Shown here piece after piece: positions 5,644-14,725 of a DNA stretch of 20,069 nucleotides. The position numbers were made by a program, and so were the translations under genes. This DNA is from a virus. The stretch covers positions 1-20,069 of IMG/VR virus record IMGVR_UViG_3300028873_000071. One strand, 5' to 3'. The stretch's first letter is position 1. The number at the start of each line of letters is the position of its first letter. The notes beneath the pieces were generated by a model. The model did no database searches and was not told the DNA's origin. It saw nothing but the letters and a program-made list of their open reading frames with translations.

Positions 5644-5906
5644 TGCGGGCAGCCCAGGTTGCGGTGGTAGGCGTTGTGCTCGCGGACGCTAGCGATCGTC
5701 GGCAGCGTGTCGTGGCGCGAGTACCGTATGATCGGATCCACGCAGAGCACCTCGGTGTCAGTCACGGAGGTCAGGGTCCCGTCGGTCTGGCAGCCAGCGA
5801 GGGTGCTTGCGGCCAACAGAGCGAACAGCGTTAGTCCGCGCTTGTTTGACGACGACGAGAGTGCTCGCACGAGCGGCGTCCCACTGAGCCTGTTTACGAT
5901 GTTCAC
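5640..5906 (-). CDS. Small lipoprotein, Rz1-like outer-membrane spanin candidate
   Basis: An 88-aa product starts at GTG 5906 with GGAG 9 nt upstream. It has a basic stretch (NKRG, about 21-24), a hydrophobic signal core and a lipobox LAGC with the modifiable cysteine at residue 39. A mature part of about 50 residues follows, containing two more cysteines. Its 3' neighbour overlaps as ATGA, and its first half is encoded in another frame within the end of the upstream two-TM gene (149-bp overlap, 5758-5906). A lipoprotein partly nested in an inner-membrane lysis gene is the hallmark of Rz/Rz1 spanin pairs in Gram-negative phages. The mature part is not Pro-rich as classical Rz1 is, so the assignment rests on the lipobox and the gene arrangement. 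The true start could be a later codon closer to the signal core. Confidence 0.65.
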   Translation of the reverse strand: MNIVNRLSGTPLVRALSSSSNKRGLTLFALLAASTLAGCQTDGTLTSVTDTEVLCVDPIIRYSRHDTLPTIASVREHNAYHRNLGCPQ

Positions 5907-6108
5907 CGATCGAAACTCCGATTGCAGTTGAGGTCATGACCACGATGACGACCAGCGCGGCCCAGATGAAGTCGATCCTGTGAACAGGCGAGAAGTACCA
6001 GCCAGCGAGACATGCGAGCAGCGCGACGCCGCCGATGCCGAAGTGCCAGATCAGTGGCCAGAGGCCGGCGAACTCAAACGAGATCCAGTTGAGGGTGGTG
6101 GTCGTCAT
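5758..6108 (-). CDS. Inner-membrane spanin-like (Rz-type) lysis protein with two TM segments
   Basis: I start this gene at ATG 6108, which overlaps the endolysin stop as ATGA; upstream in-frame ATGs at 6180 and 6120 lie inside the endolysin and are less likely. The 116-aa protein has two hydrophobic segments, about residues 20-40 (FGIGGVALLACLAGWYF) and 47-67 (IDFIWAALVVIVVMTSTAIGV). A charged helical region follows (GEHRKQAQWDAARAS, then VVVKQARTNAV), like the periplasmic helix of Rz. Rz usually has a single TM, so two segments are unusual. It is placed directly after the endolysin and overlaps a lipoprotein gene in another frame, which strongly suggests it is the inner-membrane partner of a spanin pair that disrupts the outer membrane at lysis. 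Confidence 0.65.
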   Translation of the reverse strand: MTTTTLNWISFEFAGLWPLIWHFGIGGVALLACLAGWYFSPVHRIDFIWAALVVIVVMTSTAIGVSIGEHRKQAQWDAARASTLVVVKQARTNAVRSVGRKHPRWLPDRRDPDLRD

Positions 6109-8113: not shown

Positions 8114-8859
8114 TAGGCCACCCTCCTTCGTGGTTCGGCTGTCATCGAGTTGTATTCGGCCGACACTACCATGTCGTTGTTTTCGCCATCGCTATATTGT
8201 GCCTCGGCAACTATCATGGCGCGGTCCTCGTACGCCGCTGCCGCTTGGCGGTCTTCGTAGGCGACGTAAATTAGTTCGGGGTTGCCCAGAACGGTGAGTT
8301 GCAGGAAACCTAGCTTTGCGGAGGAACCGGCAAAATAATAGGCCCCGCCGACAGACCCCAGCGCGACAACCGTCCCCGCGGCGATCCCTGTTACGCTGTA
8401 CGACCCACCGAGCGCAATTTCGCTAGGACTGAATTGCGCGGCGTTGCCGGCCTCGGCGTAGCTTGTGCCGAGTGGCGGGAACCATGTCGAGAAAGCCGCG
8501 CCGCTGCCTGTTTCGGCGTAAGTGGTCCCTGCTGGAGCGAACCTTGTGCCAAACGCCGCGGCGTTGCCGGTAAGCGTGTACGTCGCGCCAGCCGCCGCTT
8601 CAGACGTCAAGAACGCCGCGGCGCTGCCTGTGTCGGCGTAAGTGGTCCCTGCTGGCGCGAACCTTGCGCCAAACGCCGCAGCGTTGCCGGTAAGCGTGAA
8701 TGTCGCGCCAGACGCCGCTTCAGACGTCAAGAACGCCGCGACCCTGCCTGTTTCGACGTAAGCGGTCCCGAGACCGCTAAGGACTGTATTTGTCGCGGCT
8801 GTTGTCGGGTTCTGGCCGAGGGCCCACCGGCCAATCGCGTCGAAACCGAGCAACGACAT
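8113..8859 (-). CDS. Repeat-containing fibre/appendage protein (20-residue repeats)
   Basis: A 248-aa protein. The head (MSLLGFDAIGRWALGQ) is a lead I associate with phage appendage proteins. Residues about 34-190 consist of 20-residue units of the form Y-x-x-T-G-x-A-A-A-F-x5-A-x-G-T/A-x. These alternate between a 'GxRFAPAGTT' and an 'LTSEAAxGAT' type and become degenerate towards the C-terminal side. A distinct tail follows with YEDR twice (VAYEDRQAAAAYEDRAM) and a short basic end (EPRRRVA). Regular short repeats of Y--TG--A-F suggest a beta-solenoid or stacked strand rod. The gene begins 1 nt after the upstream stop and ends in a TAATG overlap. A fibre shaft or receptor-binding spacer is the likely role; that is inference. 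Confidence 0.72.
   Translation of the reverse strand: MSLLGFDAIGRWALGQNPTTAATNTVLSGLGTAYVETGRVAAFLTSEAASGATFTLTGNAAAFGARFAPAGTTYADTGSAAAFLTSEAAAGATYTLTGNAAAFGTRFAPAGTTYAETGSGAAFSTWFPPLGTSYAEAGNAAQFSPSEIALGGSYSVTGIAAGTVVALGSVGGAYYFAGSSAKLGFLQLTVLGNPELIYVAYEDRQAAAAYEDRAMIVAEAQYSDGENNDMVVSAEYNSMTAEPRRRVA
8281..8760 (-). repeat. 60-bp tandem repeat with 120-bp dimer period
   Basis: Successive 60-bp blocks repeat in register. The best-conserved part is 8521-8640 against 8641-8760, a 120-bp dimer differing at 10 positions by my count (about 92% identity). Blocks 8461-8520 and 8401-8460 are diverged copies, and 8281-8400 are degenerate. In the minus frame each block is exactly 20 codons. The alternating A/B monomers show that the most recent duplication copied a two-unit block. 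Confidence 0.92.
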
Positions 8860-11775: not shown

Positions 11776-11800
11776 GGGTGGCGGGATTATCCCGCCACCC
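11776..11800 (-). terminator. Perfect 10-bp hairpin downstream of the capsid gene, terminator- or processing-like
   Basis: On the minus strand the sequence is GGGTGGCGGG, loop ATAAT, CCCGCCACCC, giving ten G:C-rich pairs between the capsid stop and the next gene's start. No run of U follows (ACCTCTTTCG), so it would be a weak or partial terminator, an RNase site or a 3'-end-stabilising stem limiting expression of the adaptor genes relative to the abundant capsid. Confidence 0.6.
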
Positions 11801-11807
11801 GGATCAG

Positions 11808-12791
11808 TTAGCCGGGGATGATGATCGCCTGGGCCAGCGCGGTACCGTCGACGACCTTGTAGCCGAAGACCTGAAGGCCGCGCATGATGGTGCCGAAGGT
11901 CATCTCGGACCGGAGCGTCTCCATCTTCGTCATCTGCGATGCGAACGTCAGACCGTGAGCGTGGCCGGCGTACATGGCGAACTCGCCCGCAGCCAGGCCG
12001 CCCGCGATGCCGTTCGGCAGCAGGTTGGACGTGTAGAGCGTGAACCGATCGACCATGCCGATCCGGCCGTTGCGCAGCATCGACTGCCCGTCGCCCGTGA
12101 GGTAGGCCTCGCGGAGTTCGGAGCTCTTGATGAGCGTCGCGGCCCACGCCGGAAGAACAACCCATCGGCCGTTTTCCGGGATGTTGCGCTCGTCCAGGGT
12201 CTGACCCAGACGCAGGATGGCATCGACAACTTCGACCTTGCCGACCGCGGGGGAGCGGTTGACGATGGCGAGCGGGGTCGAGCCCGAGACGCCGAGGTTG
12301 ATGTTGCCCGAGATCGCGCCGGCGGCGCCGCCACGGTTGGTAACTGCGGCGGCGCCGTTGAGGATGCCCGCCAGCACATTGGTGTCGATGACGATCTTCA
12401 TCTGCTCGCCGGCATCGTCCGACCACATATTCAGCAGGTTGAGGTCGGTCTGCACCTCCATGACGTCGTCCAGGATGGTGTTGAAGTACTCACCCTGGTT
12501 GATCAGCAGAGAGATCATGTTGCCGGACGGACGCTGAAGCGCCAGCGCCTGGTCGGCGGAGTAGCTCGAGATCGTGATCGTCGGCTTGGTGCGGATGTTG
12601 ACCGTATCGCCCTGGTTCTTGATCTCGCCCTGATAGTCGGTGTTCGAGATCGCGGCCAGCACGGTGCTGGCGTAGAACTTCTCGATCAGCTTGCCGGACC
12701 AAATGGTCGGAATGAAGCCGGTCGAGGCGAGGGTGTTCGCGGTACCGCCTACGGGATAGAGGGTACCGCCGGATGCTACTGGAAAGGTCAC
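11808..12791 (-). CDS. Major capsid protein (HK97-fold, P22-coat-like)
   Basis: 327 aa from a GTG at 12791 with AGGAG 10 nt upstream. The protein opens with TFPVASGGTLYPVGGTANTL and FIPTIWSGKLIEKFYASTVLAAISNTDY, typical of an N-terminal arm plus spine helix. The 'KNQGDTVNIRTKPTITISSY' strand and 'INQGEYFNTILDDVMEVQTD' segment (about 85-125) are close to the P22-coat-like family pattern 'LLIDQG-YF-F-LDDVDE-Q'. The C-terminal half has WVVLPAWAATLIKSSELREAYL, GRIGMVDRFTLYTSNLLPNGI and an 'AMYAGHAHGLTFASQMTKME' turn. Length suits a podovirus capsid without large insertion domains. It is preceded by the scaffold-like gene and hairpins flank it on both sides, consistent with a highly expressed late gene. 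Confidence 0.88.
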   Translation of the reverse strand: MTFPVASGGTLYPVGGTANTLASTGFIPTIWSGKLIEKFYASTVLAAISNTDYQGEIKNQGDTVNIRTKPTITISSYSADQALALQRPSGNMISLLINQGEYFNTILDDVMEVQTDLNLLNMWSDDAGEQMKIVIDTNVLAGILNGAAAVTNRGGAAGAISGNINLGVSGSTPLAIVNRSPAVGKVEVVDAILRLGQTLDERNIPENGRWVVLPAWAATLIKSSELREAYLTGDGQSMLRNGRIGMVDRFTLYTSNLLPNGIAGGLAAGEFAMYAGHAHGLTFASQMTKMETLRSEMTFGTIMRGLQVFGYKVVDGTALAQAIIIPG

Positions 12792-12806: not shown

Positions 12807-12838
12807 GAGAGAAGGGTTACCTGACCCGCCCTTCCCTC
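12807..12838 (-). promoter_or_regulatory. Hairpin across the scaffold stop, just upstream of the capsid ribosome binding site
   Basis: On the minus strand, GAGGGAAGGG pairs with CCCTTCTCTC across a 12-nt loop that contains the scaffold stop codon. That is ten pairs, nine Watson-Crick and one G-U. The capsid Shine-Dalgarno AGGAG starts immediately downstream, so the stem could shield, expose or stabilise the capsid message, for example as an RNase III-type processing point. Confidence 0.5.
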
Positions 12839-13776
12839 TGCGCCTCGAAGATCTGAGCCTCGATGCGATTGTACTCCGCCTCCTTGCCCCGGAATTTTCC
12901 GCGACTCGAGTCAGCGTAGAACTGAGAAATTTGGGCGGTTGTGAAGGTGGGCTTCTCAACAGGGGCGCCAGAGGCCGCTGCTGTCTTTGCTCTGCCCGGT
13001 GCCGCGAAGGTGTCTAGCGGGATCTTGCCATCATCGGCAGGAGCCGGCGCACCGGTAGTTGCGGGAGCCAGGGCAGCCTCTTGAGCGAGGAAGCCGTTGA
13101 AGAAGGCGAGCACCCGAGGGGTATCGTTCCGCTCGTAAGCTGCCGTCAGCAACTCGTGTCGTATAGCACCCGAAAATGGATCTTGCAACTTCAGCCACGA
13201 ATGAAATTCGGGCATGAAGTTTAGTTCGCGCCAGGACGAACATTTTTCGTCCAATGATACTTCCATGTTATGTCGCGCGGTCACTTTCGCCGCTTCGGCA
13301 TTGCCGCCAAGCTGCGCCTTGAGGCCGTCGAGCTCGCGCTTCATCTTGGCCATCTCGGGCGTCAGCTGTTCGAGAGCCTTCTTGCCGACCACGGTCAGGA
13401 ACTCCGCGCCGTACTCGCCGACTTCTTCAGCCGACAGCAGACTTGCAGGGTTCAGATCGGGCGACAGCTGCGCCGGCGGCGCCGCTTCGAGTTGCGCCAT
13501 GCGCGCGGACATGGTCGCAATCTGGTCGCTCATCGAGCGAATGTTGTTCTGAGAGGCGTCGAACCTCCCCTTCATCGAGTTGTACTTGTGCTCCCAGCTG
13601 ACTTCGGCGTTACCCGCCGGGGTAACATCCGCGGGCGCCAGGGGCGCGGCGGTAGCGGTTGGCTCAGCCGGCGGAATGTTGTTGGCGGCGTTGAAGGCTT
13701 CCTGGGCGGCTTCGGCCTGGCGGCGGATCGCTTCGGGGACCTTTACGTTCGGGTCGATCGGGGGCGGGGTGGCCAT
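12817..13776 (-). CDS. Putative scaffolding/head assembly protein
   Basis: I choose ATG 13776 (319 aa), which has GGAGA 7 nt upstream, over an in-frame GTG at 13800 that lacks such a site. The N-terminal ~60 residues are Pro/Ala-rich and disordered. A coiled-coil-like helix follows (SWEHKYNSMKGRFDASQNNI to QIATMSARMAQLEA, about 60-95), and helical residues to about 160. A central part (about 165-220) includes SSWRELNFMPEFHSWLKLQDP, and a basic C-terminal end reads TAQISQFYADSSRGKFRGKEAEYNRIEAQIFEAQREG (given here in part). The protein lies directly upstream of the capsid gene and is a long helical, charged, Ala-rich protein. That is the position and composition of scaffold proteins; homology to a known scaffold is not established. 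Confidence 0.66.
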   Translation of the reverse strand: MATPPPIDPNVKVPEAIRRQAEAAQEAFNAANNIPPAEPTATAAPLAPADVTPAGNAEVSWEHKYNSMKGRFDASQNNIRSMSDQIATMSARMAQLEAAPPAQLSPDLNPASLLSAEEVGEYGAEFLTVVGKKALEQLTPEMAKMKRELDGLKAQLGGNAEAAKVTARHNMEVSLDEKCSSWRELNFMPEFHSWLKLQDPFSGAIRHELLTAAYERNDTPRVLAFFNGFLAQEAALAPATTGAPAPADDGKIPLDTFAAPGRAKTAAASGAPVEKPTFTTAQISQFYADSSRGKFRGKEAEYNRIEAQIFEAQREGRVR

Positions 13777-13806
13777 AGTCAAGTCTCCGTATCGCGCCAC
13801 ATGCGG

Positions 13807-14067
13807 CTAGAGCGGCAGGCGGGGCTTCTGGTTGAGGTTTTTTTCGATTTTTTCAGCGGTGGTTCTGCACTCAGCGAGGATCTTACGGAGTGCGACGCAA
13901 GCCTGGGCGCGGCCTTGCGCGGCCGGGAGGGAAAGAGCATCCGCGGACACGCATTCGTCGCGCTTGCCGTCGGTGTAGGAAGTGAGGGCCGATATGAAAT
14001 CTGCGAACTCGGGCGGGGCGCGGCTGGCGAGACGAGCTGCCGCAATGACGAGATCTCGATCGCTCAA
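13807..14067 (-). CDS. Small helical phage protein (86 aa), function unknown
   Basis: TTG start at 14067 overlapping the previous stop as TTGA, with GGGGA 7 nt upstream. The protein reads SDRDLVIAAARLASRAPPEFADFISAL, then DECVSADALSLPAAQGRAQA and LRKILAECRTTAEKIEKNL. The pattern 'LV-AA--LA-RAP--W--F--AL' with 'C---LP-AQGRAQ' is a recurrent small gene near phage capsid modules. No motif gives a function. Confidence 0.7.
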   Translation of the reverse strand: MSDRDLVIAAARLASRAPPEFADFISALTSYTDGKRDECVSADALSLPAAQGRAQACVALRKILAECRTTAEKIEKNLNQKPRLPL

Positions 14068-14270
14068 GACACGTCCCCGCTGGTGTCGGGCGGGCTCATG
14101 CCGAGGATGCTCTTGGCTCCGAGGCCGCCGGCACCCGACGGCGTCAGCTTCGCGTACTGGCTCAGCGTGTGCTGGCCGGCGGCGAGCGTGGAGAGCGCGG
14201 CTCGGTGAGGGAGCAACTCTTCAGTTGCTCCCTTACCAACGTGGTGCGTGACACCGGGGATCCGCGCCAT
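14064..14270 (-). CDS. Small protein of unknown function (68 aa) carrying an embedded hairpin
   Basis: The ATG at 14270 shares one base with the upstream stop (TAATG) and the 3' end overlaps the next gene (TTGA). The product has no recognised domain. It begins MARIPGVTHHVGKGATEELL and is Gly/Ala-rich at the C-terminus (SGAGGLGAKSILGMSPPDTS), similar in style to small phage linker proteins. A 15-bp stem-loop lies inside its early coding part. Coupled junctions on both sides support it being translated. Confidence 0.6.
   Translation of the reverse strand: MARIPGVTHHVGKGATEELLPHRAALSTLAAGQHTLSQYAKLTPSGAGGLGAKSILGMSPPDTSGDVS
14204..14237 (-). promoter_or_regulatory. 15-bp stem-loop inside coding DNA near a gene start
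   Basis: On the minus-strand mRNA GGTAAGGGAGCAACT, loop GAAG, AGTTGCTCCCTCACC gives a 15-pair stem (fourteen Watson-Crick and one wobble) and a 4-nt loop. It lies 33 nt inside the 68-aa gene, covering about residues 12-22. A stem this long is unlikely by chance. No U tract follows, so it is more likely an RNase III or RNA-protein site, or a translational control element, than an intrinsic terminator. Confidence 0.7.
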
Positions 14271-14725
14271 TAGCCGTATGAGGCCGTGACGGTTGGGCCG
14301 GAGACTTGCATGTCGCCGCGCGGACGCGGGACCACAAGATACTGCCCCTGGGTCTTGGCGGTATCGGTCAGGGTGCCGATGAACTTTCCGGTCGCGTCCG
14401 TGATGAGGTCGAAGTATTTCTTCGCCACGAACTCGGTGAGGATCGCTCCGCTCGCGCCGGCGACGAGATCGCCACTGAACGCTGCGGCGGTGAGGTTGGC
14501 GCCCACGGCACTGGACGAGAAGTACGCCGCGAGGTTGAACACCGCGGCCACGTTGTTGCCCTGAGCGTCAACCACTTGGATGGTGTAGATGCACGTATTC
14601 GATCCGCCGACGCCGGGGGCAAACGAGATAACAGTCCCCAGCTCGCTCCATTTGAGGATTTCGACGATCGCCTTCTCCGCGTCTTCGTGGTCGACGCGCG
14701 TCCGGACAGTTGCTCCGATAGTCAT
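14270..14725 (-). CDS. Head or neck structural protein candidate (151 aa)
   Basis: ATG at 14725 with GGAG 9 nt upstream. The protein is moderately acidic with a helical N-terminus (RTRVDHEDAEKAIVEILKWSE). Beta-rich segments follow (VISFAPGVGGSNTCIYTIQVVDAQGN), then an Ala-rich helical part (AAVFNLAAYFSSSAVGANL) and a C-terminal strand-rich end (KFIGTLTDTAKTQGQYLVV). It sits between the portal/FAKGG genes and the scaffold/capsid genes and may be a head decoration or neck component. No named family is recognised. Confidence 0.6.
   Translation of the reverse strand: MTIGATVRTRVDHEDAEKAIVEILKWSELGTVISFAPGVGGSNTCIYTIQVVDAQGNNVAAVFNLAAYFSSSAVGANLTAAAFSGDLVAGASGAILTEFVAKKYFDLITDATGKFIGTLTDTAKTQGQYLVVPRPRGDMQVSGPTVTASYG

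Follow-up and report, generated by a model that had tools for sequence, protein, structure and literature searches.

Genes and hairpins of the head region

The window, i.e. the whole stretch of DNA that was analysed, is a virus record of 20,069 bases. The genes of interest follow one another in the order portal, 71-aa gene, variable 151-aa gene, 68-aa gene with a hairpin, 86-aa gene, scaffold-position gene and capsid gene. The features of this region are listed below.

14270-14725, minus strand: variable 151-aa ORF of head-fibre or decoration type, so named from synteny and from the PF11133 match of its equivalent in the related phage L018
14064-14270, minus strand: 68-aa ORF containing the hairpin, a member of a small conserved family
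14204-14237, minus strand: the hairpin, 33 nt into the 68-aa ORF
14235-14237 with 14204-14206, minus strand: outer stem of the hairpin, 3 bp
14234 with 14207, minus strand: A·C mismatch of the hairpin
14223-14233 with 14208-14218, minus strand: core of the hairpin, 11 perfect bp
14219-14222, minus strand: loop of the hairpin, GAAG, 4 nt
13807-14067, minus strand: 86-aa ORF, synteny conserved
12817-13800, minus strand: scaffold-position gene, matching PHROG 13678 (no named function) and placed before the capsid gene
11808-12791, minus strand: major capsid protein
11776-11800, minus strand: second hairpin, 11 bp, 7 nt beyond the stop codon of the capsid gene, in a position that is near-universal in the family

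The stop codon of the 151-aa ORF overlaps the start codon of the 68-aa ORF (TAATG). The capsid protein of the window and that of Rhizobium phage RHph_TM3_14A share about 71% identity, and the gene that carries the hairpin corresponds to a conserved ORF of 60-80 aa found in the interval from portal to scaffold in phages of the Rhizobium/Bradyrhizobium type with genomes of about 60 kb. Members of this small-protein family share the motif GKGSxxExLPxR...NYAKxTPSG. The 68-aa protein had no match in Pfam or PHROG, nor did a search of phage records with the small protein return one. It is predicted to be largely unstructured in a low-confidence model (pLDDT 59); the model of the 151-aa protein is poor (pLDDT 44), and both are too weak for fold searches. 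The product of the upstream gene in L018 matches the Pfam head fibre protein family PF11133 above the cut-off (E 1.6e-8) as well as PHROG head fibre families, and that of L027 has a tail-fibre-like part. It was also observed that the C-terminal domain of the gene in the 14270-14725 position (minus strand) has been swapped between related phages.

Two further observations were made on neighbouring genes of the minus strand. The scaffold-position gene contains, at 12949-13188 of the window, patches of extreme synonymous-codon conservation among 91 diverse scaffold genes, e.g. TTCTTCAAnGGCTTCCTCGCTnAAGAGGCTGCC, GCACCGGGCAGAGCnAAGAC and GCCCCTGnTGAGAAGCCC, with a smoothed excess of 0.40 as compared to a maximum of 0.16 in the capsid and portal genes. 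Neither a convincing consensus fold nor a credible match in Rfam was obtained for these patches, which could possibly form an RNA or DNA element embedded in the gene. Farther along, past the capsid region on its downstream side, a gene carries a tandem repeat at 8486-8769 of the window; its unit is about 120 bp long and the copies are 91% identical.

Fold of the stem and evidence for selection on its pairing

The position of the stem-loop, its 4-nt loop and its distance of 33 nt into the 68-aa ORF were borne out as the first-pass annotation had described them. The stem of 15 bp which it reported exists on the plus strand, as 15 unbroken pairs including one G·U, and only there. The gene that carries the hairpin is encoded on the minus strand, thus the relevant RNA has 11 perfect bp, an A·C mismatch and 3 bp. 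The sense-strand fold has a free energy of -29.1 kcal/mol, as compared to -15.9 ± 2.5 kcal/mol for shuffled sequences (z -5.3). It had also been claimed that such a stem is not expected by chance. This is true for the whole stem, as one with at least 14 Watson-Crick pairs and at most one mismatch was seen in 0.67% of Markov-shuffled windows. It is too strong a statement for the 11-bp core, as 10% of synonymously recoded genomes contain at least one perfect coding hairpin of that length. At the hairpin site itself, with the amino acids held, 11 bp was reached by none of 300,000 synonymous recodings. In a sliding folding-energy scan of the genes of the window, which dilutes the stem, the site did not come first. 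Among homologous windows in the relatives, the stem window was second, with a mean z of -1.81 as compared to -0.19 ± 0.58 for control windows from the portal, scaffold and capsid genes. In the related clade, folding excess was strongest in a window from the C-terminal part of the scaffold-position gene.

Several known kinds of element were considered and rejected. No U tract follows the hairpin of the window (GUUGCUCCCUCACCGAGCC) or the stems of the clade that has it in the gene, so an intrinsic (Rho-independent) terminator was rejected, in agreement with the earlier view that this is probably not a terminator, at least not a standard one. A programmed frameshift signal was rejected because no conserved open alternative frame lies beyond the stem, and a known RNA family of the Rfam type because no Rfam 15 covariance model matched the window or the locus.

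The contigs in IMG/VR that overlap the hairpin region are essentially identical to the window and are therefore uninformative on variation within the population. The amino acids of the motif alone give about 58% paired cells. In the members which have the stem in the gene, 60 of 64 cells were paired as against 36.9 ± 3.7 under synonymous recoding, and a subgroup lacking one codon gave 38 of 40 as against 25.0 ± 2.2 (p<5e-5 in each case), for a pairing register that was taken from folds of the same sequences, which are also related to each other. Members with an intergenic hairpin showed no such excess (18 of 32 cells, 20.2 under recoding) and neither did members outside (31 of 72, 37.2 under recoding). 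Three stem pairs have changed on both sides within the in-gene clade, and one third-position pair occurs as CG, GC, GU and AU; no covariation was found in the comparison set outside that clade. Two of the checks proposed in the first-pass annotation, comparison with synonymous recoding and covariation of stem positions, came out in favour of the stem, and the RNA-level function it anticipated is likely; covariation in the related clade exceeds the amino-acid constraint. Comparison of the related genes shows that compensatory and synonymous changes have preserved the predicted in-gene hairpin. The sequences of loop and stem are not conserved across phages, contrary to what is expected of a specific protein site, and the protein-binding role suggested earlier gained no individual support.

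It could be argued that the hairpin has no function and is a by-product of the GKGS...LLP motif, whose codons tend to complementarity, together with chance in the window. The share of recoded genomes with an 11-bp hairpin, the pairing given by the motif alone and the fact that the nearest relatives lack an in-gene stem would all be in line with this. However, it is only in phages lacking an intergenic hairpin that pairing, covariation and the pattern of positions all go beyond the synonymous null, and we regard this already disfavoured reading as very improbable.

Position of the hairpin among related phages

The capsid-protein tree contains a clade of 17 rows (support 100/95), and in nearly every member of it a hairpin lies just past the stop codon of the preceding head-fibre-type gene. 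In six phages (L011, L013, L015, L018, L089 and L191) the two genes are separated and the hairpin is intergenic. In the window and 13 others (L027, L021, L033, L138, L116, L035, L096, L014, L023, L017, L016, L119 and L025) the genes abut or overlap and the stem is formed from the small-gene codons for GKGSxxExLLP, though weakly in L035 and L096. As a tentative rule, a gap of about 33 nt or more would go with the intergenic form and abutting genes with the in-gene form. The nearest homologues beyond the near-identical contigs of the window are L089 and L011. They have a strong hairpin directly 3' of the upstream stop and no stem in the gene, which gives no support to a hairpin fixed within the small gene. 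L191, a Bradyrhizobium contig that was examined afterwards, fits the rule: its gap is short, the hairpin is intergenic and a stem within the gene is not evident. L190 and L191, contigs of 60-61 kb from Bradyrhizobium assemblies, encode capsid homologues that have about 80% identity to that of L014, suggesting hosts for the clade.

In the tree the window and the two intergenic-hairpin phages L011 and L089 nest together (99/98), and the remaining in-gene phages form a separate branch (100/99). The in-gene form must therefore have arisen at least twice. The stem of the window and those of the other in-gene phages pair in different registers, as separate origins would give. At least two switches to the coding position are counted within the clade, and three if the outlying L064 is included. 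In this distant member an unrelated stem of 10 bp (GGACGGCAGC/GTTGCCGTCC) is found at 5876-6040, where it follows a head-fibre-like gene and takes up the same codon position, which is a possible third origin. It could be that a regulatory hairpin moved from intergenic into coding DNA at least twice, each time as the gap closed, and that the codons of the small protein were reshaped in the process, perhaps even at the level of two residues in the window (Ser to Ala and Met to Leu); we give this proposal slightly less than an even chance.

The nature of the upstream gene goes along with the strength of the hairpin. After head-fibre-type genes the median is -16.7 kcal/mol as compared to -7.8 kcal/mol where other genes stand there, and hairpins of -14 kcal/mol or lower follow 14 of 22 head-fibre-type genes and 2 of 34 others, an association that comes mostly from one clade, with phylogenetically independent pairs too few for statistical power. 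The comparative evidence ties the predicted hairpin to the boundary after a head-fibre-type gene, whatever its position or sequence. A second hairpin lies directly 3' of the capsid stop in 86% of 94 relatives, again with unrelated sequences.

These positions bear on control of translation. A stem 23-33 nt past the start codon could keep post-termination ribosomes near the overlapping stop and start and so aid re-initiation on the small gene, which would suit the occurrence of in-gene stems with abutting or overlapping genes. However, the intergenic version lies between the stop and the ribosome-binding site and would act in the opposite way, so that one mechanism would be needed where the genes are separated and another where they abut. 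We consider this improbable; the downstream translation control proposed earlier likewise received no individual support, as a single translational mechanism misfits the two hairpin positions. Position and sequence vary and presence at the boundary persists, which favours a role as a structure within the transcript over that of a sequence-specific protein site or of translational control of the small gene.

Possible role at the operon boundary and known systems

We consider that the hairpin is best explained as a boundary or protective RNA structure in the polycistronic head mRNA, like the hairpins that lie within ORFs in E. coli, and judge the chances of this to be about even. What is found at the locus is a stable hairpin at a gene boundary, firmer than random, the structure of which is conserved as its position and sequence vary. 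The upstream part of the message would run from the portal to the head-fibre gene and the downstream part would comprise the small gene, scaffold and capsid. Endonucleolytic cleavage or termination of the Rho type farther downstream would come first, and 3'-to-5' exonucleases would then halt at the hairpin. The upstream mRNA would thereby be left more stable, and its amount could differ from that of the downstream part. In E. coli many hairpins within downstream ORFs block 3' exonucleases and protect the upstream mRNA (Dar and Sorek 2018, PMC5927463); together with the absence of a U tract in the window, this favours a boundary or protective hairpin.

Another reading is a transcription attenuator. 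Such a hairpin, possibly aided by Rho, would make RNA polymerase pause or partly terminate once past the head-fibre gene and so tune the downstream genes. It would be a stable, G+C-rich hairpin past a stop codon, as observed, and U-rich stretches come after the intergenic hairpins of L011 and L089, which could act as terminators. In addition, the capsid stop is almost always trailed by a hairpin, and the T7-like phage LUZ100 has a strong terminator there (PMC10134795). But the window and the in-gene clade have no U tract, and a full stop here would silence scaffold and capsid, and no promoter-like site was found between the hairpin and these genes when the sigma-70 consensus, the only one scored, was searched. 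Attenuation is thus an unlikely explanation.

RNase III processing sites are long, roughly two-turn double-stranded stems. If RNase III or RNase E cut the message at the hairpin or 5' of it, a stable scaffold and capsid mRNA with a structured 5' end could be released, bracketed by the hairpin at the end of the capsid gene. The two strongest hairpins of the window do flank a segment of 2.4 kb from the small gene to the capsid, and structured 5' ends after RNase E cleavage are known in E. coli (PMC5927463). However, a stem of 11+3 bp is short for RNase III and falls below two turns, which leaves the RNase III role named in the first-pass annotation without individual support. Moreover, the 5' protective structures of E. 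coli belong to the upstream gene and here the downstream gene is concerned, and a cut at the in-gene stem would destroy the small-gene message. A processing site therefore appears quite unlikely.

If the hairpin is indeed a boundary or protective structure, selection would maintain a hairpin where two particular segments of a phage late operon meet, regardless of its sequence and of whether the site is coding or non-coding. Sister phages with the hairpin outside and inside the gene would then be a natural experiment on how one message yields portal, fibre, scaffold and capsid in unequal amounts. It would also be a warning that signals of this kind can be carried by the choice of codons in small phage genes.

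The hairpin has the same anatomy as the operon-boundary hairpins of E. coli, being inside the downstream ORF, although those lie on average 107 ± 56 nt into the ORF (PMC5927463) and this one 33 nt. It also differs in belonging to a phage head operon, in its relocation between intergenic and coding DNA and in being a prediction from sequence. The galE hairpin of the E. coli gal operon, which blocks 3' exonucleases and sets polarity, likewise stands where two cistrons meet across a short gap (PMC11925234); it concerns other genes and hosts, and the phage counterpart is again a predicted one. The intergenic structure of malE-malF (as described in PMC5927463) resembles the hairpins of L011, L013, L015, L018, L089 and L191 in standing behind the gene of an abundant product, but the phage hairpins have no repeated sequence family and their sequences differ in each phage. 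The post-capsid terminator of LUZ100 (PMC10134795) has its positional analogue in the second hairpin at 11776-11800, whereas the hairpin studied here is upstream of scaffold and capsid and has no U tract. A literature search for a hairpin that moves between intergenic and coding DNA at a phage operon boundary returned no paper. Boundary hairpins are known in bacteria, and to our knowledge the shift between intergenic and coding positions at one operon boundary of phages is apparently new.
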